Shown in pieces: positions 24,000-50,509 of a stretch of 64,000 nucleotides of DNA (positions are counted from its first letter, which is position 1; each line of letters starts with the position of its first letter). The DNA is taken from assembly GCA_021779665.1 (NCBI GenBank), contig JAJYAG010000007.1, positions 1-64,000 on the forward strand, read 5' to 3'. Source of the DNA: Bacteroidota bacterium. GTDB lineage: Bacteria; Bacteroidota; Bacteroidia; Bacteroidales; JAAUTT01. The notes beneath the pieces were generated by a model. That model saw only the letters and a program-made list of their open reading frames with translations, was not told where the DNA came from and made no database searches. The translations under genes were made by a program, and so were the position numbers.

Positions 24000-24088
24000 C
24001 CACAGTCGTCGGACCACAGACCACAGCTATACAGCCACCAGAAATTGGCTGTTTGCCGTGGACAGTGGTCTGGCGACCGAGGACCAAG
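24000..24088. repeat. Degenerate GTGGACAGTGG tract before the rhamnosidase gene
   Basis: Sequence of the ccacagtcgtcggaccacag type is followed by its approximate complement (ccgtggacagtggtctggcg) around 24060, making a loose inverted repeat. It fills the 117-base gap between the kinase and rhamnosidase genes. Confidence 0.6.
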
Positions 24089-36521: not shown

Positions 36522-38567
36522 TTAAATTTTGTTCACCTTAATGTTTATTGTTTCTCCAGTTTCCAGACTGATCCTCACCAGATAAACGCCAGTTGTCAGA
36601 TGCTCAATATTTTCCTCAACCAGGTTTGAGGACAGGTTGTTTTCATATAACATACGTCTTCCACGTATATCGGTAATTTCAACCCCAACAATCAAATATT
36701 TTCCACTTTCAATTCTGATGTTTGTTCTCGCAGGGTTAGGATAAACATTTATCTGACTATTATTTGTTGTATTTGAAACGCCAAGAGTTGTGATTGTAGA
36801 AACCGACCAGCTTGAAGCCAGGCTGTTATTTGAATTGAGGTCGGTAAGACAGAGGTAATATCCTGTACCATTTGCCTGCGCAGGCCAGGGTGAGTTGTTT
36901 TGATAGTTTACACTATCGATCGTGTTTCCAAAAGCATCGGCAAGAACAAGGCGTTCTGTACTGTCGGACAAGCTTCGCGTAAATTCGCCAAACGGACTGA
37001 ATCCATAAAACTGTAGAAAAGAAATTGCATTATTCGCGATATAAAGCCTCTCTCCGGCAGGTAAGGATGAATTTGCAGGAAACTGATAAGTTAGGCCCAA
37101 ATCGCGGAAATGAACTCCTGTTAAATCAGCCGTCTGACTACCGTTGTTTGCTATTTCGAGAAACTCAAGATCTTCGCTCTTGTGTCCCAAAGCATCTTTG
37201 GGGTTGTAATGGATTTTTGAAATTGCCAGCGTCGGAACTGTGGGATTGGCGCAATTTCCGTAATTATTGAGGTTACTGTTTAACCAATTTATTCTGTTCT
37301 GAATCCACCACTTCATATTTTCAATATTCTGAAGATAGCTGCCTCCATTACCCCATCGTGTGTTTTCGCGAGGTAAAGCTTCAGAAATCTGTTTAAGAAC
37401 CTTGTCTATTTTTGCGGAGATGGAAGTGTAGCTAAGCGGACCATTGCCTCCGCTCAGGCTGTTCCACCGGCGGGCCAGATAGCACCTGAATGTTGGAGTG
37501 TCGTATAAGTCTTTCCAGAATTTTGCACCCGTGTTATCGCCGTTATTAAACTGCCAAACATTATAAAAACTGCGGTTATATCCCCATATAAACAAGTCGT
37601 TGCCATAGGTGAGGTCGTAATCCCAAATGGGGCCGGCTCTGAGTTTTCCACCTCTTTCTTTATGAAAATACGTGCTGTACTGATAGGAATCGGCATTGGA
37701 CGACAATTCGCACATAATCATATAATCGACAAAACTGGGTATGTCAATGATTGAAGGGTACCCATTTACAATCGAACTGTTTTGTGATGAAGCAGTACTC
37801 TGTAAATTTGTAAACTGCGATTTAATGTAGTTGATTTGTTCCCAGGTAATTTCATTAGATTTTGGGTTTTCGAACAAAAATTCAGTGGTTTTGCTGTACG
37901 ATGACATGGTCCATGCAACCGGATCGCCTCCTGTTGTTTTATCGGCTTTTATAATATACCCTCCTGTAATTTCGGGATTGGTATTGTCGTACCTGGTCAT
38001 TTTGGAGATGTTGACCCTGCCTTTATCAATCTTAATTTTCTCCATAAAAATGTACAATCCTTTGTAATCGCCGTTAATAATCACTTCACAATATACACAG
38101 CGGGGAGCGTAGTTACCCATGCTCCGGGCAAGATCGTACGATAGAAAATTACGGATTAACGATGGGTCGAAAGCAATCGAATTCAGCACCCAGTCATTTT
38201 CAGGAGGCATTCCCAAAATACTTACATTGTTATTAGTAACATTGTCGCTCATATAAGTAGTGAGGCCGTAAGGTTTTTTAGGCAGTAACTGCGATGAAGA
38301 ACCTCTTGTTTCAATGCCGATGCGGCCATTGTAATTCAGAAACGCAGCTGTGTTTTGATCTGCCACATAATTTCTGGAGCTGTCGGGACGAAAAATGATT
38401 TTCATACTGGCACCCACTTTGTATGCATCGGGTATTTCGCGCGGTTGTCCGGTTCCTGAACTCAGATCGGTATTGATGATCACAATCGGTAAGTTGCTGT
38501 CCGTTAAAGTTTGAGTCCGGGCAAAAGTTAAGTTAAATATAAGAAGTAGAGGTAAAAAGTGCTTCAT
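36522..38567 (-). CDS. Secreted CotH-family protein with lamin-tail domain and T9SS sorting tail
   Basis: This 681-residue protein has a signal peptide (about 1-20). The CotH kinase-like domain covers about 25-440, with IGIETRGSSSQLLPKKPYGL, GDYKGLYIFMEKIKIDKGRV, GGYIIKADKTTGGDP and AGPIWDYDLTYGN, the last corresponding to the metal-binding Asp region. A lamin-tail domain follows (about 450-590), and the end (INVYPNPARTNIRIESG to INIKVNKI) is a T9SS sorting domain. The first CotH protein in the window (15417-17930) has the lamin-tail domain ahead of the kinase domain instead. It leads an operon with LysE-type and SGNH genes. Confidence 0.88.
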   Translation of the reverse strand: MKHFLPLLLIFNLTFARTQTLTDSNLPIVIINTDLSSGTGQPREIPDAYKVGASMKIIFRPDSSRNYVADQNTAAFLNYNGRIGIETRGSSSQLLPKKPYGLTTYMSDNVTNNNVSILGMPPENDWVLNSIAFDPSLIRNFLSYDLARSMGNYAPRCVYCEVIINGDYKGLYIFMEKIKIDKGRVNISKMTRYDNTNPEITGGYIIKADKTTGGDPVAWTMSSYSKTTEFLFENPKSNEITWEQINYIKSQFTNLQSTASSQNSSIVNGYPSIIDIPSFVDYMIMCELSSNADSYQYSTYFHKERGGKLRAGPIWDYDLTYGNDLFIWGYNRSFYNVWQFNNGDNTGAKFWKDLYDTPTFRCYLARRWNSLSGGNGPLSYTSISAKIDKVLKQISEALPRENTRWGNGGSYLQNIENMKWWIQNRINWLNSNLNNYGNCANPTVPTLAISKIHYNPKDALGHKSEDLEFLEIANNGSQTADLTGVHFRDLGLTYQFPANSSLPAGERLYIANNAISFLQFYGFSPFGEFTRSLSDSTERLVLADAFGNTIDSVNYQNNSPWPAQANGTGYYLCLTDLNSNNSLASSWSVSTITTLGVSNTTNNSQINVYPNPARTNIRIESGKYLIVGVEITDIRGRRMLYENNLSSNLVEENIEHLTTGVYLVRISLETGETINIKVNKI

Positions 38568-38764: not shown

Positions 38765-38772
38765 TATATTTG
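38765..38772 (+). promoter_or_regulatory. -7 box of the cobalamin uptake operon
   Basis: TATATTTG matches the Bacteroidota -7 element exactly and lies about 15-20 bases before the first riboswitch helix. A -33 box is not clear. Confidence 0.5.
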
Positions 38773-38784
38773 TCAACGAAATTT

Positions 38785-38976
38785 TTGGTTCGTACGGGAG
38801 TTTCACTCCTGCCGATTAAAAAGGGAATGCCGTGAAAGGCGGCAACAGTACCCGCTGCTGTAAATCCCGGTCTGCGAAAGCAGATCAGTCGCTTCGGTCA
38901 CACAAACCACTGTCACGCTCAGTTGTGATGGGAAGGGAAACCGGAGAGGGATAAGTCAGAAGACCTGCCAGAATAA
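38785..38976 (+). promoter_or_regulatory. Cobalamin (adenosylcobalamin-class) riboswitch
   Basis: A first hairpin near 38790-38815 (gggagtttcactcc) is followed by aaaagggaatgccgtgaaag (38817-38836), the conserved core, then gtacccgctgctgtaa (38849-38864), where CCCGCTGCTGTAA is the B12-box-type element. gatgggaaggg (38929-38939) and taagtcagaagacctgcc (38954-38971) complete the conserved 3' half. All are in order and spacing. The riboswitch binds cobalamin and would switch the downstream operon off when the vitamin is plentiful. The first gene starts at 39084. Confidence 0.95.
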
Positions 38977-39083
38977 TTATTGTCAACGCTTTCGGGAATA
39001 AAAGCGAGGAATTGAACCGTATGTCAATCCCCCTGTTTTTCCTTGAAGCCATTTTATTAATCTTTTAAAAATGGTATTCAGTA

Positions 39084-39824
39084 ATGAAATCAATTAAGTT
39101 TTTACCGGCCTTAGTTCTGGCCGTTGTTCTCTTTTCATCGTGCGAAAAGGATGAAGATAATTCAGTTGTAGAAAATTTTAACCTCCTGACAGTTCCTTCG
39201 TCAGGTTATTGGAATGGCTCTGATAATTCCGGCAATTTCAAGGTTAACGAAATTGCTTTCCCGAATACATACACTGCGGCATGGGGTACCTGGAGCGGAT
39301 TTGCCTACTCAAACAAGCACGACGTTAAAACATCCGGCTATGGAAATCAGTATTCCAGCTATGTATTAAAGGATTCGGCAAGCAGCAATGTTTTTGTTGT
39401 TGCATATCCCTATTATACTACCAATACAATTGAATTTGATAATGTTGTTTCCGATGTGCGCTTTAAAGTTGCGAATGATACCTATACAGCTTTATCCATG
39501 AAATCGGGCGATATGTTTTCGAAAAAGTTTGGCGGTACCTCCGGCAACGATCAGGATTGGCTGAAACTGAGAATTATTGGAATTAGTGATACAGGAACGC
39601 CAACTGATTCTGTTGATTTTTACCTGGCCGATTACCGTTTTGCCGACAATAAGCAGGATTATATTCTTAATGAATGGAAGTCTGTTAACCTGGATAAGTT
39701 GGGCAAAATCAAAAAAATAAAATTTGCTCTCAGCTCCACTGATAATGGCCAATGGGGGATGAATACTCCCGGCTACTTCTGTCTGGACGATATAGCATAT
39801 AAACCTGTTGCAAAAACAGAATAA
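39084..39824 (+). CDS. DUF4465-type surface lipoprotein, candidate cobalamin-binding protein
   Basis: This 246-residue protein has a lipoprotein signal (VVLFSSCEKDED, Cys20) with a following acidic stretch typical of surface-exposed lipoproteins in Bacteroidota. SGYWNGSDNSGNF, WGTWSGFAYSNKHD and TPGYFCLDDIAYKP are features of DUF4465 domains, a jelly-roll type fold. It is the first gene after the cobalamin riboswitch. Some Bacteroides cobalamin loci encode B12-binding surface lipoproteins named BtuH; this gene could be a functional counterpart, but I cannot confirm the homology. A direct test of binding would settle it. Confidence 0.8.
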   Translation: MKSIKFLPALVLAVVLFSSCEKDEDNSVVENFNLLTVPSSGYWNGSDNSGNFKVNEIAFPNTYTAAWGTWSGFAYSNKHDVKTSGYGNQYSSYVLKDSASSNVFVVAYPYYTTNTIEFDNVVSDVRFKVANDTYTALSMKSGDMFSKKFGGTSGNDQDWLKLRIIGISDTGTPTDSVDFYLADYRFADNKQDYILNEWKSVNLDKLGKIKKIKFALSSTDNGQWGMNTPGYFCLDDIAYKPVAKTE

Positions 39825-39896
39825 AGATAATCCGACCAGCCTTTTTAATGCCCTGACCGGTTCTCGTAAGAGGCCGGACAGGTTAAAACTAAAAAA

Positions 39897-40928
39897 GTGA
39901 AAAGATTTTTATCAATATTCATTGCGTTTTTAGCCTTCGCTCCGACCTTCGGTCAGTTTGCGCCGGCAGCAGGAGAAACAGGATCTACAGCCATACACAA
40001 GGATGATGTATCCTTTAAAGGCTGGGCAAAGACCTGTAAGGTAATCAGGGGGTTTATCAACATCAGCGATACTTCCAAAACATTCACCCAAAATCCGACG
40101 ACTTCAAACCGGGCTTTTTTTGGCACCGAAGCCATGGCAATTGGTCAACCCGGCGGCCCGCTTGATTGTATAAGTCTTGGCGATGGTGGTTCAGCAGTTC
40201 TTACGTTTGATTTCCCTGCTAAAAATGGTCCGGGTCCCGATTTCGCAATTTTCGAGAATGGAATTAAGGAGCAGGAATCGCCTTTCCAGTATTTTCTCGA
40301 ACTTGGCTTTGTGGAAGTAAGTACAAATGGGAAAAGATATGTGCGTTTCCCTGCTGTTTCCAATACCTTGGCAAAAGATCAGATTACAAGCTTTGGCCAG
40401 ATCGACCCGACTAAAATCCATAATTTCGCCGGGAAATATGTTGCCAACTACGGTACACCGTTCGATCTCGAAGATATAAAAGACAGTACCGGTATTAACC
40501 TCGACAGTGTCAATTATATCCGCATTGTTGACGTGGTTGGAAATGTCGATCCGAAATTTGCCCGTTACGATTCCAAAGGTCAGGTAATTAACGATCCTTT
40601 TCCGACCGAATTCTGGACAGGAGGTTTCGACCTCGATGCAGTGGGTTTGATCAATATAAATCGGGAAATAAGTAACTACGAATCTTTGAATAAAGGATCA
40701 TTTAAGGTTTATCCAAATCCGGCTAAATCTGGTGAAGCCATTTCTATTGAAGGAGTTGACGATGCTGCAATCCGGCTTTGTTCTCAAGCGGGGAAAGTAT
40801 TAGGCGACTGGAAGGTAAACCGTCAGGAGGTCCTTACAATGAATCTTCCCGAGCTCGCCACAGGTTTGTATCTTTTAACAGTGAGGTCTTCAAAAAATAT
40901 TCAAACAATTAAGTTATTGGTTAAATGA
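39897..40928 (+). CDS. Secreted surface protein with T9SS sorting tail in the cobalamin operon
   Basis: It starts with GTG at 39897 and has 343 residues. A signal peptide (about 1-19) precedes a domain of about 230 residues with GTEAMAIGQPGGPLDCISLG, GGSAVLTFDFPAKNGPGPDF, AIFENGIKEQESPFQYFLEL and GKYVANYGTPFDLEDIKDS. This looks like the beta-rich 'cell surface protein' found in Bacteroidota cobalamin loci. The C-terminus (FKVYPNPAKSGEAISIEG to IKLLVK) is a T9SS sorting domain, so the protein is surface-delivered. The stop codon overlaps the start of the TonB receptor gene by 4 bases. A role in B12 capture is inferred from location. Confidence 0.78.
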   Translation: MKRFLSIFIAFLAFAPTFGQFAPAAGETGSTAIHKDDVSFKGWAKTCKVIRGFINISDTSKTFTQNPTTSNRAFFGTEAMAIGQPGGPLDCISLGDGGSAVLTFDFPAKNGPGPDFAIFENGIKEQESPFQYFLELGFVEVSTNGKRYVRFPAVSNTLAKDQITSFGQIDPTKIHNFAGKYVANYGTPFDLEDIKDSTGINLDSVNYIRIVDVVGNVDPKFARYDSKGQVINDPFPTEFWTGGFDLDAVGLININREISNYESLNKGSFKVYPNPAKSGEAISIEGVDDAAIRLCSQAGKVLGDWKVNRQEVLTMNLPELATGLYLLTVRSSKNIQTIKLLVK

Positions 40929-42874
40929 GAAGGTTGTTGGCCATATTGTTTGTTATCTGTCCTTTTGCGAAAGGGATTGGACAATCGTTGGCTGACACCG
41001 TTAGGCTCCACGAAGTGTTTGTGACTTCGGCACGACAAGTTACCGAACGGGCTTTTTATATCAAAAGCATCGATTCAATTGTTCTTGCCAATACTTCCGG
41101 TACTGATCTGTCGGAGCTGTTACAGAAGTATTCCTTTCTTTATATTAAATCTTATGGTGCCGGAGGATTGTCAACAGCATCCTTTCGGGGTACTTCCGCA
41201 TCGCATACCCAGGTGTTATGGAATGGTTTCAATATAAATTCGCCCTTGTGGGGACAAACCGATTTATCCATGATGCCAGTGTTTTTTACCGACGAAGTTT
41301 CGTTGTTCTATGGCAGCAGCTCCCTTGCTAAAACTTCAGGTGGTTTAGGTGGCTGTATAAGTTTGAACAATTCGCCCGACTGGAATGCAGGAACTCAGCT
41401 TTCGCTGGCACAAACTGCAGGAAGTTTTGGCTATTATCTTTCGCAGTTGAAGGCCGGTTTTAGCCGCAACCGTTTTGTGAGTAGCACAAGGTTGTTTTAC
41501 GACAGGGCTAAAAATAACTTCCGCTACTACGATAATGCAAGCGGGCTTTTTGATTATATAAGGCAGAAAAACGCGGATTATCACAAAGAAGGTTTTCTTC
41601 AGGAAGTTTATTATAAAATCTCGTCACGGCAATTTGCAGGGTTGAAAGTTATGAGCGTCTGGGCCGATCGTAACCTGCCTCCAATAATGAGTTTCAGCGG
41701 AGCCAGCAGATACGAAAACCAAAAGGATAATATGCTTAATATAATCGGAGAGTGGAAATATTACAGTGCCAACAGCAATTTGACCTTTCACTCCGGATTA
41801 ATCAGAAATTCGTTAAGCTACATCTTAACCAATACCAATCCGGGCGGCACTTTCGTGAATTACGATACCGAAAACAGGAGTAATGTCTTTGCCAATAAGC
41901 TGAACTTTCAGCATAATTTCACGCCTAATTCGGTGCTAAAAACCTTTGTTGAAGCCAATTTTACTTCGGCCAGGTATTCGGACCTGAAAGAAAATACCGG
42001 TTTCGATGTTCAGCAAAGTGATATTAATTTGCAATCGTCGTTTCACCGCATTTTCAATCCAGCAGTTTCGGGTTATCTTCTGGCTCAGCAAAAAATGCTC
42101 GATGGTAAACTGATGCCTTTTATTGCTGCTGCTGGTCTCGAAATTCAGCCATGGATTAACCAGGGACTTACAATCAGGGCAAATATGGGCCGAAACCTGC
42201 ATGTTCCTAATCTGAACGACCGTTATTTCAATCCCGGCGGAAACCATGATCTCAAACCCGAAACAGGTTACCAGGCCGATGCAGGTGTGCAGTTCGTTAA
42301 AACCCTGAATAATGTTCGCTTTCAACTCGAAGTTACCGGTTTTACTGCCTGGATTAACGACTGGATATTGTGGCACCCGAGCGAATACAGGTATTGGACT
42401 GCCGATAATGTGCAGCAGGTTTTTTCGCGCGGAGCTGAAGTAAATGCCGGCCTAAAAGGTGATTTGGGTTCGGTTACATGGCAGCTTAAGGGAAACTATG
42501 CGTTTACGCGGACTACAAATGAAGAGAGTGAATCGCCGTCAAAAGGCATGCAGCTGATTTATATACCCAAAAACGTTTCGAACTTACAGCTGTTTCTCGA
42601 AAAGGGAACTTATTCTTCATCGATTTCATTTCATAATACAGGTTCGCGTTATACATCAACAACCGAGAGTGAAGCGTATCAGCTTCCGTCGTATTTTCTC
42701 CTGGATTTTGCATTGGGTAAGAAGTTCGATATTAAGCAACATGCCCTCAATTTCAATCTTAAACTCAACAATATCCTTAATAAACAATATCAGGTAATTG
42801 AACAACGCGCCATGCCGGGAAGGAATTTTCTGGTTGGGCTGAGTTTTAATTTTTCTAAAAATGGTAATCAGTAA
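40925..42874 (+). CDS. btuB: BtuB-like TonB-dependent outer-membrane receptor
   Basis: This 649-residue protein has a signal peptide (about 1-20), then a plug domain (TVRLHEVFVTSARQVTERAF, LLQKYSFLYIKSYGAGGLST, SFRGTSASHTQVLWNGFNIN, about 22-150), then a beta-barrel ending NFLVGLSFNFSKNGNQ. No N-terminal carboxypeptidase-like domain is present, so it is of the classical rather than SusC type. It would move cobalamin through the outer membrane with TonB energy. The operon with a cobalamin riboswitch, BtuG-like lipoprotein and ABC genes strongly supports the substrate. The stop codon overlaps the next gene by 14 bases. Confidence 0.9.
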   Translation: MRRLLAILFVICPFAKGIGQSLADTVRLHEVFVTSARQVTERAFYIKSIDSIVLANTSGTDLSELLQKYSFLYIKSYGAGGLSTASFRGTSASHTQVLWNGFNINSPLWGQTDLSMMPVFFTDEVSLFYGSSSLAKTSGGLGGCISLNNSPDWNAGTQLSLAQTAGSFGYYLSQLKAGFSRNRFVSSTRLFYDRAKNNFRYYDNASGLFDYIRQKNADYHKEGFLQEVYYKISSRQFAGLKVMSVWADRNLPPIMSFSGASRYENQKDNMLNIIGEWKYYSANSNLTFHSGLIRNSLSYILTNTNPGGTFVNYDTENRSNVFANKLNFQHNFTPNSVLKTFVEANFTSARYSDLKENTGFDVQQSDINLQSSFHRIFNPAVSGYLLAQQKMLDGKLMPFIAAAGLEIQPWINQGLTIRANMGRNLHVPNLNDRYFNPGGNHDLKPETGYQADAGVQFVKTLNNVRFQLEVTGFTAWINDWILWHPSEYRYWTADNVQQVFSRGAEVNAGLKGDLGSVTWQLKGNYAFTRTTNEESESPSKGMQLIYIPKNVSNLQLFLEKGTYSSSISFHNTGSRYTSTTESEAYQLPSYFLLDFALGKKFDIKQHALNFNLKLNNILNKQYQVIEQRAMPGRNFLVGLSFNFSKNGNQ

Positions 42875-43979
42875 AAATAAATATAAAGTCAACCTGAGCA
42901 CTGTTGAAGGGTGGCTGAGTTTACTTCTCGTTTTCCTCTTATTTCCTTTTTCCTCGTGTGAAGACGAAGCTCCTTTGAAACAATTCCAGGTTAATGAAGG
43001 TGTTTTTATTTTGAATGAAGGAAATTATACCTACGGCAACGCCGCTCTTTCTTTTTACAATCCTGATAAAAAGGAACTTACTAACCGGATTTTTAAGAAT
43101 ACAAATGGATTTCCCATTGGAGATGTACTTCAGTCGATGACAATTGCCGATTCCCTTGCCTATCTTGTGGTGAATAATTCGGGAAAAATCCTGGCAATAA
43201 GCATCAACACTTTCAAACATAAGGGAACCATTTCGGGGTTAGTATCGCCGCGACAAATGCTTGTTTTAAGTGCTTCAAAGGCATACGTGAGCGATTTATA
43301 CGACAAGTCTGTTTCCATTGTTAATCCGCAGACTTACACCAAAACCGGAAGTATTCCTCTTGGTAAAAGCAGCGAAGCCATGCTGAAATGGGGTAATTAT
43401 GTTTTTGTTACCAACTGGTCGAAACAGAATACACTCCAACGGATTGATATAGCCACCGATAAATTTGTCGACAGCATGGTTGTTACAAAACAGCCCAACA
43501 GCATGGTGCTGGATAAGAATAACAAAATCTGGGTTCTGAGCGATGGCGGTTTAGCCAGTTTGCCCGGCGGTAAAGTAAAGGCTTGTCTCACAAGGATTGA
43601 CCCCGAGACTTTTAAAATTGAAAAAGAGTTTGTCTTTCCCGACCTGAATGCTGCTCCAACACGTTTGTGCATGAATAATGGAAAGGATTCTCTTTATTTT
43701 TTAAACGGCTCCTGGGGAAGTTCTGTTTCCAACGGCGGTGTTTATCGAATGTCGGTAAGTGATTTAGCTTTGCCGGCTTCACCCTGGATTCCTGAAAGCG
43801 GAAAGCTGTTTTATGCTTTGGGGGTTGACCCGCGGAACGGCAATGTTTACGTGAGCGATGCCGTTGATTACATGCAGCCGGGTTGGGTTTACCGATACAG
43901 CAGAGAGGCTGTGTTGCTCGATTCTTTTAAGACAGATATCATCCCTTCTGCTTTTTGCTTTAAATACCAGAAATTATAA
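42861..43979 (+). CDS. btuG: BtuG-like beta-propeller surface lipoprotein
   Basis: This 372-residue protein has a lipoprotein signal (LLFPFSSCEDEAP, Cys33). After it, a YncE/DUF5074-type beta-propeller occupies the rest: NEGVFILNEGNYTYGNAALS, VVNNSGKILAISINTFKHKG, SPRQMLVLSASKAYVSDLYD, LSDGGLASLPGGKV and NVYVSDAVDYMQPGWVYRYS. BtuG of Bacteroides is a propeller that sits on BtuB and binds cobalamin with extreme affinity. This gene overlaps btuB by 14 bases, the same partnership. The Cys-Glu-Asp-Glu start fits a surface export signal. Confidence 0.88.
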   Translation: MVISKNKYKVNLSTVEGWLSLLLVFLLFPFSSCEDEAPLKQFQVNEGVFILNEGNYTYGNAALSFYNPDKKELTNRIFKNTNGFPIGDVLQSMTIADSLAYLVVNNSGKILAISINTFKHKGTISGLVSPRQMLVLSASKAYVSDLYDKSVSIVNPQTYTKTGSIPLGKSSEAMLKWGNYVFVTNWSKQNTLQRIDIATDKFVDSMVVTKQPNSMVLDKNNKIWVLSDGGLASLPGGKVKACLTRIDPETFKIEKEFVFPDLNAAPTRLCMNNGKDSLYFLNGSWGSSVSNGGVYRMSVSDLALPASPWIPESGKLFYALGVDPRNGNVYVSDAVDYMQPGWVYRYSREAVLLDSFKTDIIPSAFCFKYQKL

Positions 43980-44087
43980 CTTTACCAATCGTAACTTAAT
44001 TGTAACCTCGTTTTGAGACCCAGGCTCAATATTTCCGGTATCTTATATCCGCATAAAACAGTGCGGCATGGATCTGAATTTATCCTG

Positions 44088-46226
44088 ATGTTTCTTTTTT
44101 CAATTTGTTTTGGTCCTAAGCTTGCTGCCCAGCAAACGGTTTCGGGGGTTCCTTTCAGCATTATTAACAATTTACCTGCGCCTGATGTATATGAGGTTAT
44201 GCCTGATTATCGGCAGGTTAAAAAAGTGATGCGCGCAGATGAGGCTTCCGGCAGACTGAAACGACTGGAGTTTGCGCATGTCTTCGATCTTTCATTTAAT
44301 CCTGAGAATTCGGGCGAATGGCAAACCTTAAATACAGGTGACAGACTATGGCGTCTGGGGGTTGTTTCCAAAGGAGCCTATTCTCTGAACTTGATTTTCG
44401 GAATTTTCAACCTAGAGCCTGAGGTGAAAGTTTATGTGTATTCACCGGATAAGAAATACTTGCTTGGGGCATATTCTTCGCAAAATAACAATGCGGCAGG
44501 TAAGCTTGCCATCGAACCTTTGCCTGGCGATTCGCTGGTAATTGAAATGAACATTCCAGCTTCGGTTTCAAGTTATGGAGATCTCGAATTAACCCGAGTG
44601 GGGCACGATTTTATGAATGTTTTTGGCACATCATATAAAAGTTCGTCGGGTGTGGCAGTTTCTGGAGCATGCAATGCAGATATCAACTGCGACGTTGGCA
44701 TTCCGTGGCAACGTGAAAAGTATGCTGTTTGCAAACTCATTATCGATGCCCGCGATATCTGCACCGGTACGCTTGTTAACAACACCGCAAAGGACAGGAT
44801 ACCTTACCTGATTACGGCTAATCACTGCATCGATACCACCACCAAAGCTGCTGCCACGGTTTTTATTTTCAATTACGAAAAGTGGAAATGCGGAGGTCAG
44901 GATGGGCCTAAGCCTGTAACACTTTCAGGCTCATATCTGATAGCAACAACACCCAATCTCGATTTTTCGCTTGTACGCTTATATGAGATGCCCATTTTCA
45001 GTGCGTATCCTTACCTTGCCGGCTGGAACCGGTCGAACATTGCACCGTTGAGCAGTTCTACAATTCATCATCCCAATGGCGATTTTAAAAAGATCTCCAT
45101 CGATGAAAATCCTGCTGTGAGTGCGACCTATGCCGAGGATTACAATCCCAATACCCATTGGCTCATTAACAAGTGGGAGGTGGGTACAACCGAACGCGGA
45201 TCTTCCGGTGCGCCGTTGTTTAATCAGTATCACCAGGTAGTTGGCGATCTTACCGGAGGCGATGCTACATGCTCGTCCTCGGTGAGAGATTATTTTGCCA
45301 AACTTTACAATTCGTGGGCCGATTATCCCGAATGGAAACGGCAGCTCCGTCACTGGCTCGATCCGCTTAACTCCGACAGTGTAAGCATTACTGGTTTAGA
45401 TCCTTATGAGCTCGAAAAAGCTTCGTGCGATACTTTCAGAACTGTTCCGGCTTCTGAGCAGAAGCAACTTTATACCACCGGTCTGGGATGGGGAAGTTAC
45501 AGTGGCCACAATTCGCTTTTAATTACTCAGTTTGCCGAAAAGGTTGATGTGGGCGGAGTTCTGAAAATACCGGGATTTTATTTGGATGTAGCCAAAGCTT
45601 ATAATGCTTCACCCTTGTCGTTCATTACCATAAAACTTTGGAATGGAGGCGATATCCCCGGAGATTTAATAACTTCCCGAGCGGTTTACCTGAAGGATTT
45701 GACACCCAATAAGCTCAATTACCTGGGATTTGATTCGACAATTGTAGTAAATGGCCCGGTTTACCTGGGTTATTCAGTAAATTACTCGGCTCCGCAGGAT
45801 ACTTTTTCTCTTTATCAGGCACAGGATCGCGGATCAGGTGGCTTCTCAGGAATGTTTGTCTATAAGGACGGAAATTGGGTCAATATTTCGGAGGTCACCT
45901 CGCCTAAAATTTACAGTTCTTTATCTGTTGGCTTGATTTCCTGCAGTCTGATCAACAAAGTGCCTGAGATCAGCCTTCAGTCGCATAAGCTGTATGTTTA
46001 TCCCAATCCTGTTGAACGGGGTATTTTGAAAGCTGAGGTGCCTTCTGTTGAAAATATTGTGGTGAGCGTTTACGATTTGACCGGAAGATCTGTCAGAGTG
46101 AATTGGATAGCCGAAGGAAACGGAATTCAGCTGAATACTTCCGGGTTGAGTTCGGGAACATATATTTTAAAAGTGATTATTCCCGGCGAAGGGATTTACA
46201 ATGCTAAGTTTTTGGTAATAAGATGA
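44088..46226 (+). CDS. Secreted trypsin-like (lysyl-endopeptidase-type) serine protease with T9SS sorting tail
   Basis: ATG at 44088 gives 712 residues with a signal peptide (FLFSICFGPKLAAQ); a TTG start at 44013 would add 25 residues. An N-terminal beta domain (about 25-175) precedes the peptidase S1 domain (about 190-430). The triad is ITANHCIDT (His), TPNLDFSLVRL (Asp) and TERGSSGAPLF (Ser), as in lysyl endopeptidases, with several cysteines. A further beta domain and a T9SS tail (LYVYPNPVERGILKAEVPS to KFLVIR) follow. It lies inside the cobalamin operon, overlapping the BtuF-like gene by 4 bases. It may process surface partners or free protein-bound cobalamin; this is inference. Confidence 0.88.
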   Translation: MFLFSICFGPKLAAQQTVSGVPFSIINNLPAPDVYEVMPDYRQVKKVMRADEASGRLKRLEFAHVFDLSFNPENSGEWQTLNTGDRLWRLGVVSKGAYSLNLIFGIFNLEPEVKVYVYSPDKKYLLGAYSSQNNNAAGKLAIEPLPGDSLVIEMNIPASVSSYGDLELTRVGHDFMNVFGTSYKSSSGVAVSGACNADINCDVGIPWQREKYAVCKLIIDARDICTGTLVNNTAKDRIPYLITANHCIDTTTKAAATVFIFNYEKWKCGGQDGPKPVTLSGSYLIATTPNLDFSLVRLYEMPIFSAYPYLAGWNRSNIAPLSSSTIHHPNGDFKKISIDENPAVSATYAEDYNPNTHWLINKWEVGTTERGSSGAPLFNQYHQVVGDLTGGDATCSSSVRDYFAKLYNSWADYPEWKRQLRHWLDPLNSDSVSITGLDPYELEKASCDTFRTVPASEQKQLYTTGLGWGSYSGHNSLLITQFAEKVDVGGVLKIPGFYLDVAKAYNASPLSFITIKLWNGGDIPGDLITSRAVYLKDLTPNKLNYLGFDSTIVVNGPVYLGYSVNYSAPQDTFSLYQAQDRGSGGFSGMFVYKDGNWVNISEVTSPKIYSSLSVGLISCSLINKVPEISLQSHKLYVYPNPVERGILKAEVPSVENIVVSVYDLTGRSVRVNWIAEGNGIQLNTSGLSSGTYILKVIIPGEGIYNAKFLVIR

Positions 46227-47485
46227 GAGAAATGGATAGAAAGTCGACAGACGACAGACGACAGACGACAGCAAGAATACAGAAGACAGAACAAAGACGA
46301 GGGATCGCTGCTAACATTGCCGTGGACCGTGGACTGAGGACTTTGGACTTACTTTTTTTAATCCTTTCCTGCTTCATTGTAATTTCGTGCAACCATTCGG
46401 GAATAGAAGCAAACACTGCTCAACAAGCTGTTGCCGGTAAGCTTGAAAATACTTATGCAAAAGGCTTTGCAATTGAAAAATATAGTGATTTCAAAATTCT
46501 CACTGTTTATAATCCATGGCAGCACGCCCAGGGGGTTGAATATAAGTATGTGCTTGCTGAAAATCCGGCTACCGTTCCCGATAGTCTTAAGAAGTTTGAT
46601 ATTATTCAAACTCCTGTAAAAAGGGTTGTTTGTCTTTCAACTACGCATCTGGCGTTTATCAAGGAACTGAACGGGATGGATGCTATTTGCGGTGTTTCGG
46701 CTCCCGAATTTATTTACGACTCTCTGATCCGTGAGCGGGTGAAAGCTGGTAAAATCAGCAATGTAGGATACGATCAGGCCATGAATATTGAGACCATCAT
46801 CAGCCTCAAGCCCGACTTTGTAATGGCTTACGGCGTTGGCAGCGAGTCGTCGGGGCAGTTTCAGCGGCTGAAGCAGCTGGGCATAAAAGTGGTGTTTAAT
46901 GCCGAATATCTGGAGCAAACACCGCTGGGAAAAGCCGAATGGCTCAATTTTGTGGGAGCTTTTTTCAACAAGGAAGATTCTGCCGCGCTGTTATTTAAAA
47001 AGACTTCTGAAACATACATGGAACTGGCTCAAAAAGCTGCTTCGGTAAAAGAGAAACCCATGGTTTTAAGTGGTCTCCCTTGGAAAGGTGTCTGGTACGT
47101 TCCGGGAGGAAAATCGTATGCTTCGAATTTTATCTACGATGCTGGTGGCGATTACTTATGGAAGGAGGACCGGGGTTCCGAGTCTATCCCGCTTTCGCTG
47201 GAAACGGTTCTGGAGCGTGCCAACAAAGCTCAGTTGTGGATTAACCCCGGATCTGCTGCAAGCCTGAGTGAAATGGCCATGCCTGATTCACGGATCAAAA
47301 CCATCCGACCTTTACAGGAAAAGAAAGTTTTCAATTTCAACCGACGCATGTCTCCTGGTGGCGGAAACGATTTCTGGGAGTCGGGCGTTGTTCACCCCGA
47401 TTTGATTTTAAAAGATTTGATAGCAATTTTTCATCCTGAATTGATACCAAATCATACCTTTGTATATTATCAACTCCTAAACTGA
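46223..47485 (+). CDS. btuF: BtuF-like cobalamin ABC-transporter substrate-binding lipoprotein
   Basis: This 420-residue protein has a helical-backbone ABC binding fold of the BtuF/FhuD class: VKRVVCLSTTHLAFIKELNG, IETIISLKPDFVMAYGVGSE and LKQLGIKVVFNAEYLEQTPL. It would receive cobalamin in the periplasm and pass it to BtuCD. The start at 46223 overlaps the protease stop codon (ATGA). Residues 4-42 are encoded by degenerate repeat sequence, placing an unusual basic stretch before the lipoprotein signal (LLFLILSCFIVISC, Cys56). A TTG at 46343 in the repeat tract would give a normal short signal (LDLLFLIL). Either the real start is there or the extension is tolerated. Confidence 0.85.
   Translation: MREMDRKSTDDRRQTTARIQKTEQRRGIAANIAVDRGLRTLDLLFLILSCFIVISCNHSGIEANTAQQAVAGKLENTYAKGFAIEKYSDFKILTVYNPWQHAQGVEYKYVLAENPATVPDSLKKFDIIQTPVKRVVCLSTTHLAFIKELNGMDAICGVSAPEFIYDSLIRERVKAGKISNVGYDQAMNIETIISLKPDFVMAYGVGSESSGQFQRLKQLGIKVVFNAEYLEQTPLGKAEWLNFVGAFFNKEDSAALLFKKTSETYMELAQKAASVKEKPMVLSGLPWKGVWYVPGGKSYASNFIYDAGGDYLWKEDRGSESIPLSLETVLERANKAQLWINPGSAASLSEMAMPDSRIKTIRPLQEKKVFNFNRRMSPGGGNDFWESGVVHPDLILKDLIAIFHPELIPNHTFVYYQLLN
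46243..46350. repeat. Degenerate repeat tract within the 5' end of the BtuF-like gene
   Basis: The unit acgacag occurs in four near-perfect tandem copies at 46243-46271, then gaatacagaagacagaac, and gtggaccgtggactgagg with actttggact at 46322-46349. The latter is of the same GTGGACTGT family found at 22590, 24000 and 31305. Confidence 0.75.
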
Positions 47486-47491
47486 TAAGCT

Positions 47492-47764
47492 ATGGCTAGT
47501 AAAAGAATTTTAAAAAAGAGCATCAATAACCTCACTTACGATTTAGTATCGGAATGCTTTACGTACCGTCACTTTCATCCCGATCAGAATTCCGGGATCA
47601 ACCAGATTATCCAGGATGTTGTTAAAACCCGTAACGAGCTTATCTCAAAAGTAAATCAGGCTCCGAAGGAGAAAAGTGAAAACGCCGCTTATTTCAAGGG
47701 AGTGGTTTCGGAGATGCGCGCCATGGTAAACCAGCTCGATAAAATCGATAAATTAAAAAAGTAA
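47492..47764 (+). CDS. Small conserved-looking protein in the cobalamin operon
   Basis: This 90-residue protein begins MASKRILKKSINNLTYDLVS and is rich in charged residues, probably all-helical, with no signal peptide or membrane segment, so it is likely cytoplasmic. It lies 6 bases after the BtuF-like gene and 7 bases before the permease gene, so it is translated within the operon. I do not recognise the family by name. Its place inside a riboswitch-controlled transport operon suggests a role in cobalamin uptake or use, which is inference. Confidence 0.7.
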   Translation: MASKRILKKSINNLTYDLVSECFTYRHFHPDQNSGINQIIQDVVKTRNELISKVNQAPKEKSENAAYFKGVVSEMRAMVNQLDKIDKLKK

Positions 47765-47771
47765 ACTTTTA

Positions 47772-48803
47772 ATGCTTCCCGGTTCTAAAACCTTTGTCCG
47801 AACTTTTGTCTGGCTGAGCATTTTACTTTTAGTGCTGTTTTTGCTCAACCTTGTATTAGGACCGGTAAAAATTCCTCTTAAAGAGGTTGTAAGTGCCCTC
47901 TTCACCGGCAATGCTTCGCGTGAGGAGTGGACTACCATTATCCTTGGTTTTCGGGTACCAAAAGCCTTGACGGCTATATTGGCAGGTGTAGCTTTGAGTG
48001 TCAGCGGGCTGCAGATGCAGACCATTTTTCGCAATCCATTGGCCGGGCCGTATGTTCTGGGTATCAGCTCGGGCGCCAGTCTTGGAGTTGCCGTTGTGAT
48101 ACTAGGATATGCTGCATTTTTTGGATCTGCTATGAACGCCTGGGCCGGGAAATGGATGATAGTACTTGCCTCGTGGCTGGGAAGTGGTTTGGTGTTACTG
48201 CTCATTATGGCGGTTTCGGTCCGCATAAAGGATATCATGACCATCCTTATCCTGGGAATGATGTTTGGAAGTATCATCTCGGCAATTGTGAGTGCTTTCC
48301 AGTATTTCAGCGACGAAGCCATGCTGAAATCGTATGTGATCTGGACCATGGGCAGTGTTGCCAATGTGAGCGGCGACCAGATTTATATTTTTTCGCTGTG
48401 TATACTGGCTGGCCTTGTAATCAGCCTCCTAAGTGTCAAATTTTTGAATATGTTACTGTTGGGCGAGAATTATGCTCAAACGCTGGGGTTGAATATCCGC
48501 ACCGCCCGCCTGATGATTTTTTTAAGTACCAGCATTCTTACCGGCACTGTCACAGCGTTTTGCGGACCTATCGGGTTTATTGGCATTGCGGTGCCTCATC
48601 TTTGCCGCATCCTGCTTCGTACCGACGATCAGAAACTGCTGATGTACACCTGTATTCTTGCCGGCGCTGCTGTTATGCTTTTAAGCGATACGCTCTCGCT
48701 GCTTCCCGGCAAGGGGACAATTCTGCCTTTGAATACGGTTACTGCAATAATCGGTATTCCCATTGTGATTTACATTATCATGCGAAACCACAAAGTAAGC
48801 TAG
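47772..48803 (+). CDS. btuC: BtuC-like FecCD-family ABC permease
   Basis: This 343-residue protein has about ten membrane segments and FecCD-family motifs: GFRVPKALTAILAGVALSVS (about 58-77), GLQMQTIFRNPLAGPYVLGI, LNMLLLGENYAQTLGLNIRT (the coupling helix region) and CGPIGFIGIAVPHLCRILLR (about 260-279). This family forms the membrane channel for siderophores, haem or cobalamin. The riboswitch and neighbours select cobalamin. The ATPase gene begins after a single base. Confidence 0.92.
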   Translation: MLPGSKTFVRTFVWLSILLLVLFLLNLVLGPVKIPLKEVVSALFTGNASREEWTTIILGFRVPKALTAILAGVALSVSGLQMQTIFRNPLAGPYVLGISSGASLGVAVVILGYAAFFGSAMNAWAGKWMIVLASWLGSGLVLLLIMAVSVRIKDIMTILILGMMFGSIISAIVSAFQYFSDEAMLKSYVIWTMGSVANVSGDQIYIFSLCILAGLVISLLSVKFLNMLLLGENYAQTLGLNIRTARLMIFLSTSILTGTVTAFCGPIGFIGIAVPHLCRILLRTDDQKLLMYTCILAGAAVMLLSDTLSLLPGKGTILPLNTVTAIIGIPIVIYIIMRNHKVS

Positions 48804-48804
48804 C

Positions 48805-49824
48805 ATGGAAAGGGAAACCATTATTGAAATGAAAGGCCTTGTTGTGGGGTACAGGCGCAAAAACCAGGCGGTTCCTGTAATGCGCTTTCCTTCCATTAAA
48901 ATTGAAAAGGGCGATTTCATTGCTGTTGCCGGACAAAATGGAATTGGGAAAAGTACGCTGATCAAAACACTTATTCAGCTTATCCCTGAAATTGAGGGCG
49001 AAATACTGCTGAAAGGGAAATCTGTTAAATTTTACTCCCGAACTGCTCTGGCTTCGATTATCAGCTATGTATCGACCGAAATTGTTCACAACCAGCAGAT
49101 GACGGTTCGCGATCTGGTTACTTTTGGACGCTATCCGTATACCAACTGGTTTGGTAAAATTGAGAAGGATGATTTGAAAATTGTTGACGAAGCCATAGAA
49201 TTGCTCGAACTGCAGCATCTGGCAGGCCGGAGCATCGACGAAATAAGCGATGGAGAACGTCAGCGTACCATGATAGCCCGGGCACTTGCCCAGCAAACCG
49301 AAATCATGATTCTGGATGAGCCAACGGCTTTTCTGGATCTTCCGCATAAGCACGAGATTGTTAATCTCCTTGGATGGTTGTCGCGTAAATTTAAGAAAAC
49401 AGTGATTTTCACCACGCACGATTTGGGTATCGCCATCCGTGAAGCCGATAAGTTATGGTTACTGTCGGGCGATGGCTTTTTTCATGGAAGTCCTGAAGAT
49501 CTTATTTTGAGCGGAACTGTTTCCAGGACTTTTAATACTTCCAAAGTTAGCTTCGATAACCGGAAGGGCGAATTTACCATAAAAAAGGAGCTGCGGCCTT
49601 TTATTTATATTTCAGGGAAAAGCAGCGCGGTTTACTGGACAAAAAATGCCATTGAAAAAGATGGATTTACGGTGCTTGACAAAGAATCGGAAGGTTTTCC
49701 GTCTATTGCTGTCCTGCCACAAACTGACGGATATGAATGGAAGTTAGCGGATAAAGGCAACGTAATTCTTTTCAGATCAATAGCAGAACTGAGGGTATAT
49801 ATCAAAGAGAATTTCCTTCAATAA
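48805..49824 (+). CDS. btuD: BtuD-like ABC-transporter ATPase with C-terminal extension
   Basis: This 339-residue protein has Walker A GQNGIGKSTLI (about 46-56), the ABC signature ISDGERQRTMIARAL (about 147-161), Walker B EIMILDEPTAFLD (about 167-179) and the H-loop TTHDLGIA. It powers import through the permease encoded one base upstream. The last 85 residues (from about 255, FTIKKELRPFIYISGKSSA to ELRVYIKENF) form a domain absent from typical BtuD, so this protein is about 80 residues longer than the usual 250-260. The function of that tail is unknown; it may regulate the ATPase. Confidence 0.92.
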   Translation: MERETIIEMKGLVVGYRRKNQAVPVMRFPSIKIEKGDFIAVAGQNGIGKSTLIKTLIQLIPEIEGEILLKGKSVKFYSRTALASIISYVSTEIVHNQQMTVRDLVTFGRYPYTNWFGKIEKDDLKIVDEAIELLELQHLAGRSIDEISDGERQRTMIARALAQQTEIMILDEPTAFLDLPHKHEIVNLLGWLSRKFKKTVIFTTHDLGIAIREADKLWLLSGDGFFHGSPEDLILSGTVSRTFNTSKVSFDNRKGEFTIKKELRPFIYISGKSSAVYWTKNAIEKDGFTVLDKESEGFPSIAVLPQTDGYEWKLADKGNVILFRSIAELRVYIKENFLQ

Positions 49825-49879
49825 ATTGATTCGTATTAAAACTTTTCCTAATTTTTCACTCTCATTAAAACTGACAAAT

Positions 49880-50113
49880 ATGAACCAAAGTGTTAAAAAA
49901 ATTGTAGGCTACCTGTTGGTGCTTATCGTGCTTATGTTTACTGTTTTGGGAATTTTAGGAGTATGGGGAGTTATTGATCTTGAAGACATAGGACAGAAAG
50001 TAATATCATCGCTGTTAATTGTTTTTGCTGCATCGGCAGTGTTGTTGTTCATCTTCTCGGTTGTTTTGCGCGACGATGTAAACAACAGACCTGGTCCTGG
50101 TCCAACCATTTAA
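49880..50113 (+). CDS. Small two-helix membrane protein
   Basis: ATG at 49880 gives 77 residues with two membrane segments (about 8-30, YLLVLIVLMFTVLGILGVWG, and 43-62, SLLIVFAASAVLLFIFSVVL) and a Pro-Gly-rich tail (NRPGPGPTI). It follows the ATPase gene by 55 bases and precedes the terminator at 50131, so it is probably the last gene of the cobalamin operon. The family was not recognised; a relationship to cobalamin transport is only suggested by position. Confidence 0.65.
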   Translation: MNQSVKKIVGYLLVLIVLMFTVLGILGVWGVIDLEDIGQKVISSLLIVFAASAVLLFIFSVVLRDDVNNRPGPGPTI

Positions 50114-50130
50114 CAAGAAACCGCAAAAAA

Positions 50131-50160
50131 TAAAAGCGCAGTCACACGGCTGCGCTTTTA
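50131..50160 (+). terminator. Terminator of the cobalamin uptake operon
   Basis: taaaagcgcag (50131-50141) pairs perfectly with ctgcgctttta (50150-50160), loop of 8, with A-rich and T-rich sides. It lies 17 bases after the last stop codon and could work on both strands. Confidence 0.9.
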
Positions 50161-50509
50161 TTATAAATAAGAGGTATATCCCTGTTAATGAATTGCAGCG
50201 ATTTGATTTTTGTAAAACTGAAACTTATTTCCTGATCTGATTTTCCAAAGATAATTTCCGTAGTCCGGATAGTTTTCTCAAATTCCCTGGTAATTATAAC
50301 ATCTGTAAATCTGTTGATTTTTAGGGTGATCATAACATGAGTGGGATTTAAATGTATTGCATTAAATAGAATAGCCCGGGAGGAGCAAAAGTGAGGTTGT
50401 ACAATTATTCCCTAACCGGAGGTTGAGTCTGTCGAAACCTCATTGTAAATCAGTATGATTACACTTCGACAGGCTCAGTGTCCGGCACTTTTCACACAAC
50501 CTCATAAAG

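Follow-up and report, generated by a model that had tools for sequence, protein, structure and literature searches.

A cobalamin riboswitch-led operon of a Bacteroidota bacterium with a probable BtuH-like protein and a protease that carry type IX sorting tails

Which task do proteins with sorting tails of the type IX secretion system (T9SS) have in an operon for vitamin B12 uptake? This question is raised by contig JAJYAG010000007.1 of the Bacteroidota bacterium assembly GCA_021779665.1, of which positions 1 to 64,000 of the forward strand were analysed (64,000 nucleotides, the window). Ten genes on one strand follow a cobalamin riboswitch, and the original prediction read them as a single riboswitch-led system for B12 from the surface to the cytoplasm. 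This is well supported by the family matches, by the riboswitch in related loci and by the conserved gene order, and we consider it likely that the genes form an operon which is repressed by cobalamin and covers the whole of B12 uptake. It very probably serves its host, an uncultured bacterium of the Bacteroidales type, to bring external B12 into the cell. Two assignments are new: gene 2 probably encodes a BtuH-like protein that is attached by the T9SS instead of a lipid, and gene 5, a T9SS-sorted protease, is a recurrent member of the B12 unit. The surface capture machinery of gut Bacteroides is thereby extended to other Bacteroidota, a widespread protein family that has no Pfam model is named as a probable B12-binder, and a specific protease is placed in a vitamin uptake operon. 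The features are as follows.

38765..38772, +, possible Bacteroidota -7 box TATATTTG; suitably placed, motif no commoner than by chance
38769..38986, +, cobalamin riboswitch (RF00174, 80.2 bits)
39084..39824, +, gene 1, DUF4465 lipoprotein BtuJ (PF14717, E 1.1e-50; 9fct, E 7.3e-24)
39897..40928, +, gene 2, surface protein sorted by the T9SS; BtuH-like domain, about residues 20-256; type A sorting tail, residues 271-343 (TIGR04183, fold, profile, linkage)
40925..42874, +, gene 3, TonB-dependent receptor BtuB (Bacteroides BtuB 8bmx_C, E 1.5e-66, and 8p98, E 7e-64; Plug domain)
42861..43979, +, gene 4, beta-propeller surface lipoprotein BtuG (8p97_B, E 1.2e-90 over 348 residues; DUF5074)
44013..46226, +, gene 5, T9SS-sorted serine protease of the lysyl endopeptidase type (1arb, E 3.4e-31; TIGR04183 tail above the cut-off)
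46245..46271, +, CGACAGA repeated 3.9 times at the 5' end of the BtuF reading frame, probably intergenic
46343..47485, +, gene 6, substrate-binding lipoprotein BtuF (PF01497; E. coli BtuF 1n2z, E 7e-7; operon position)
47492..47764, +, gene 7, 90-residue protein in which no signal peptide was seen; its place between BtuF and BtuC is conserved (synteny; no Pfam match)
47772..48803, +, gene 8, permease BtuC (FecCD, E 2.9e-72; best NCBIfam match BtuC, below its cut-off)
48805..49824, +, gene 9, BtuD-type ATPase (ABC_tran, E 8e-30; BtuD label from operon position)
49880..50113, +, gene 10, small protein, probably with two membrane helices (synteny; no Pfam match above threshold)
50129..50162, +, intrinsic terminator hairpin (-21.9 kcal/mol, z -8.7)

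The operon and its B12 transport genes

The riboswitch scored far above the gathering score of 31.5 bits and was the sole RF00174 match in the genome (assembly of 6.9 Mb, 96.6% complete). The same element lies upstream of the corresponding operon in 6 of the 8 related loci tested (L129, L130, L133, L141, L164 and L186); it was not detected in the other two, L134 and L144, both of which are without the BtuB/BtuG module. The ten open reading frames (ORFs) span 39084 to 50113 and, with the starts of the ORF listing, are separated by about 72, -4, -14, 33, -4, 6, 7, 1 and 1 nt from gene 1 to gene 10. The compact same-strand order with a riboswitch in front and a strong terminator behind, the latter standing out against shuffled sequences, was thus confirmed, and genes 1 to 10 are presumably co-transcribed. 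The -7 box of the original prediction fared less well. TATATTTG stands where a promoter is expected. In the window, however, TANNTTTG occurs 63 times against 68 expected, so the motif is not enriched and the box counts as positional evidence only. A sigma-70 scan was uninformative (24 found, 24.4 expected). At the junction of genes 1 and 2 (39826-39897) there is a GC-rich hairpin with no T-run (z -2.1), which might set how much BtuJ is made relative to the proteins encoded downstream.

Two gaps, those before BtuF and before gene 10, are probably wider than the listed starts imply; gene 10 probably starts at ATG 49880. The BtuF reading frame opens at 46223 inside a region of heptamer repeats, and its true start is likely TTG 46343 (MDLLFLILSCFIVISCNHSG), where the lipoprotein signal begins; the apparent overlap of the protease and BtuF genes is for this reason probably not real. 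The CGACAGA repeat resembles an intergenic repeat of the dispersed kind and would make the reading frame seem longer than it is. It is followed by GGAC-rich repeats, and similar motifs occur at 24013 and elsewhere in the window.

By its sequence, gene 1 is a BtuJ. It contains both the PF14717 domain and the NTPxYF motif of the HI-loop, which reads MNTPGYF, and it is close to BtuJ of B. thetaiotaomicron (9fct). It is a direct member of the DUF4465/BtuJ group (9FCT, 9HMU; PMC13398666), with no notable difference. The DUF4465 protein had been taken as an addition to the canonical system; it belongs to a family for which B12 binding has been demonstrated (PMC12751083, PMC13398666), a function that was already known.

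The homologues of BtuB, BtuG and BtuFCD were borne out by their family matches. BtuB resembles the Bacteroides receptors; with TIGR01779, the model for the E. coli type, it stayed below the curated cut-off. The N-terminus of BtuG reads FSSC followed by EDE, which is a surface lipoprotein signal. BtuJ, BtuB, BtuG, BtuF and BtuC are accordingly identified at the sequence level, and gene 9 is called BtuD from its ABC family together with its place in the operon.

The layout was compared with the cobamide operon 2 of B. thetaiotaomicron, which consists of btuJ2, btuH2, btuL, btuG2, btuB2, btuF, btuC, btuD and btuX (PMC12751083). Common to both are the riboswitch, BtuJ in the first and a BtuH-type protein in the second place, BtuG and BtuB, and then BtuFCD. 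Unlike in B. thetaiotaomicron, gene 2 is short and T9SS-sorted and is not a lipoprotein with immunoglobulin-like (Ig-like) domains, BtuB precedes BtuG, there is no BtuL, and three further genes, for a T9SS protease, a 90-residue protein and a small membrane protein, are present. The Bacteroides layout BtuJ-BtuH-BtuL-BtuG-BtuB-BtuF-BtuC-BtuD was found in the locus L169, where the second gene matches 7biz with E 2.5e-225 and BtuL is labelled by its position only.

Gene 2 and its relation to BtuH

Gene 2 encodes a plain signal peptide and a TIGR04183 tail above the cut-off; apart from this tail, Pfam gave no domain. An orphan T9SS adhesin was considered for gene 2 and rejected. Single-sequence and profile searches of the PDB were significant to the sorting tail only, and the fold was therefore compared and BtuH sequences of Bacteroides were brought in. 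Since matches to the tail and to beta-glucuronidases dominated a fold search with the entire protein, the N-terminal domain was modelled separately, with high confidence (pLDDT, the predicted local distance difference test, 94.1; pTM, the predicted template modelling score, 0.92). When this model was compared by VIA-align, the top two matches among the solved structures compared were the solved BtuH domains 7biz (Z 12.0, 161 residues) and 8blw (Z 11.5, 166 residues), followed by carbohydrate-binding modules and PAPP-A with Z 9.3 and below. Foldseek with the domain alone also gave 8blw_B first (E 2.4e-3), and 8blw was likewise the first match for the N-domain of the full-length model. The structural alignments with BtuH have 15-16% identity.

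For a test of kinship at the sequence level, Bacteroides-type loci were fetched. Weak hidden Markov model matches link gene 2 to BtuH-type proteins, and a profile-profile alignment (hhalign) with BtuH reached E 1.6e-6 and 90% probability over only 37 columns. The aligned stretch reads VSLGDGG..F..PI.NG.G.DFAVFEN in gene 2 and VSLGGFGG..GFDHSI.N..YDFAV.GN in BtuH. It pairs the invariant Asn121 of gene 2 with Asn399 of BtuH2, which is one of the reported B12 contacts, namely Gln333, Asn399, His476, Tyr510, Trp511 and Trp577 (PMC8941943). An hhalign comparison of gene 2 with a T9SS-tailed BtuH (A3) aligned the shared tail only and was not counted as evidence.

The genomic context points in the same direction. 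In a sample of 118 other genomes of the class, 35 full-length relatives were found, with 35-43% identity to gene 2 over the full-length alignment, and named records hold 80 or more loci. Among loci flanked by at least 4 kb on either side, 18 of 25 in one sample and 36 of 45 in another have BtuJ, BtuB or BtuG in the same orientation and no more than 5 kb away; the second sample consists of the best matches and is hence biased. Gene 2 directly follows BtuJ, which is the place of BtuH, and in three genomes (L146, L148 and L149) its domain, a DUF4465 domain and one T9SS tail are joined in a single protein. At L147:1531-3708, adjoining BtuG, the gene 2 domain is fused to a large N-terminal region with a domain of the FWVGEGSxxAVxxVNW type, which had no Pfam match and may be a further surface domain associated with B12.

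These results are good evidence that gene 2 has the fold of BtuH and probably also a common descent with it, and B12 may well be its ligand. Compared with BtuH (7BIZ; PMC8941943), it has the fold of the B12-binding domain, the operon context and one contact asparagine in common, and it differs by its T9SS tail; most contacts could not be matched. It is named BtuH-like and not BtuH because the lipoprotein signal and the N-terminal Ig-like/PKD domains of BtuH2 are missing. The anchor of BtuH-type proteins is evidently exchangeable, since four loci (L178, L179, L183 and L188) carry, beside BtuB/BtuG, proteins in which a clear BtuH domain (hhalign E 6e-60 to BtuH) is combined with a T9SS tail. The T9SS-attached components had been regarded as unusual for a vitamin transport unit. 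This view does not hold: besides these four loci, C-terminal targeting motifs occur in 229 plus 88 of 824 DUF4465 proteins (38%), so that published data already point to delivery of B12-binders by a T9SS-type route (PMC12751083). A literature search, which did not cover most subscription papers, found no paper naming BtuH together with the T9SS. The T9SS translocon protein SprA is present in the genome (2710 bits).

The protease and the small genes 7 and 10

The protease domain of gene 5 aligns with Achromobacter protease I (1arb), a lysyl endopeptidase, with His, Asp, Ser and the pocket Asp in register. His271, Asp317, Ser398 and Asp426 are invariant across 10 copies; we take the aligned residues of the Achromobacter enzyme to be its catalytic triad and, for Asp426, the Asp of the S1 pocket. 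Compared with 1ARB, gene 5 adds a large N-terminal region, the T9SS tail and the location in a B12 operon.

As the original prediction had proposed to check, the neighbourhoods in other genomes were inspected, and both the gene 2 family and the protease recur beside btu genes. The protease directly follows BtuG with short gaps in the window and in L129, L130, L135, L137, L139, L141 and L142, and directly precedes BtuF in L129, L130, L132, L134, L135, L141 and L144; these genomes belong to several families of the order. Most likely, it would free B12 from carrier or rival proteins or process surface components. A protease is not required in principle, since BtuG can take B12 from intrinsic factor by itself (PMC6143338).

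The order of the second half of the operon is conserved as a block in L129, L130, L132, L141 and L144, and is split over contigs in the genomes G128 and G136. Gene 7 between BtuF and BtuC together with gene 10 after BtuD was found in L132, L138, L141 and L144; L136 agrees over the part that its contig covers. Gene 7 is also present in L129 and L130, where gene 10 was not seen in the former and is on another contig in the genome of the latter. Judged by where they lie, the products of genes 7 and 10 are probably helpers of the transporter in the inner membrane.

A pairing of a secreted protease with the capture of a protein-bound, tetrapyrrole-type cofactor exists in Porphyromonas gingivalis, with its T9SS gingipains and the hemophore HmuY. 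This is an analogy: heme and not a corrinoid is captured, the proteases are of a different family and no homology is claimed. A tentative extension, on which we would not rely, is that in some Bacteroidota outside the gut Bacteroides a lysine-specific T9SS protease under cobalamin-riboswitch control frees cobamides from their carriers and a T9SS BtuH-like protein catches them. If true, this would be the vitamin counterpart of protease-assisted heme scavenging.

The uptake route and alternative explanations

When B12 is scarce, the riboswitch, judged from its class, would permit expression of the operon. B12 would be captured at the surface by the lipid-anchored BtuJ and the T9SS-attached gene 2 protein and passed to BtuG, which covers the TonB-dependent channel BtuB as its lid; BtuF and BtuCD would then move it across the periplasm and the inner membrane. 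As to a need of the cell for external B12, MetH gave below-cut-off partial matches only and CobI one weak match below the cut-off. The MetH matches are separate pieces on the G000 contigs C47, C229 and C298, which may reflect a split methionine synthase or assembly gaps.

The unit could import something else, for instance heme or a siderophore, since BtuC- and BtuD-type families also serve these and the BtuF match is moderate. This is highly improbable: the riboswitch, BtuG, BtuJ and the Bacteroides-type BtuB all indicate cobamides. For gene 2 itself, a discoidin-like fold of the BtuH type with another ligand, a surface glycan or protein, has to be weighed, which would make it an adhesin or a factor for the assembly of BtuBG. 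Several observations weigh against B12 binding in this way. The fold is common to carbohydrate-binding modules (CBM32, Z up to 9.3), and the Foldseek E-value is modest. Only Asn399 of the six BtuH2 contacts falls within the alignable part, the other five lie outside, and the aromatic contacts Tyr510, Trp511 and Trp577 could not be matched. About one fifth to one quarter of the gene 2 relatives have no detected btu gene nearby; L014, L016, L018, L029, L037 and L039 are such loci. Yet the two closest folds are B12-binding domains, the gene occupies the slot of BtuH, its domain occurs fused to the B12-binding DUF4465, and the contact asparagine is invariant. We therefore regard another ligand as clearly unlikely and keep to the BtuH-like assignment.

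The suggestion that all ten genes serve B12 capture was upheld by synteny for genes 2 and 5 and less firmly for genes 7 and 10. Two neighbouring units might be present instead, a B12 surface and transport core and a set of passengers (the protease and genes 7 and 10) retained for general T9SS surface functions, for example, or because their order was kept by chance. T9SS proteases of the gene 5 type are indeed common and have many paralogues, one of them elsewhere in this genome. Relatives of gene 7 (L150, L151, L154-L158 and L168) and of gene 10 (L159-L162) occur in unrelated places, and L144 and L134 have the protease block with neither BtuB/BtuG nor a detected riboswitch. The same two loci nevertheless retain protease, BtuF and gene 7 in the absence of the surface module. 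In addition, the protease adjoins BtuG in the eight loci named above, across several families, and in L129, L130 and L141 the same-strand block stands behind the riboswitch. Passengers are on this evidence an unlikely explanation, though one that deserves somewhat more weight than another ligand for gene 2, and a single B12 uptake operon is the preferred reading.

Directly upstream of the riboswitch, a divergent gene (36522-38567, - strand) encodes a CotH-like protein with a T9SS-type tail; its family label comes from reading the sequence alone. In L129, L138, L141, L142 and L143, and not in the window, argS-, ffh- and folD-like genes follow the btu block or the protease in conserved order.

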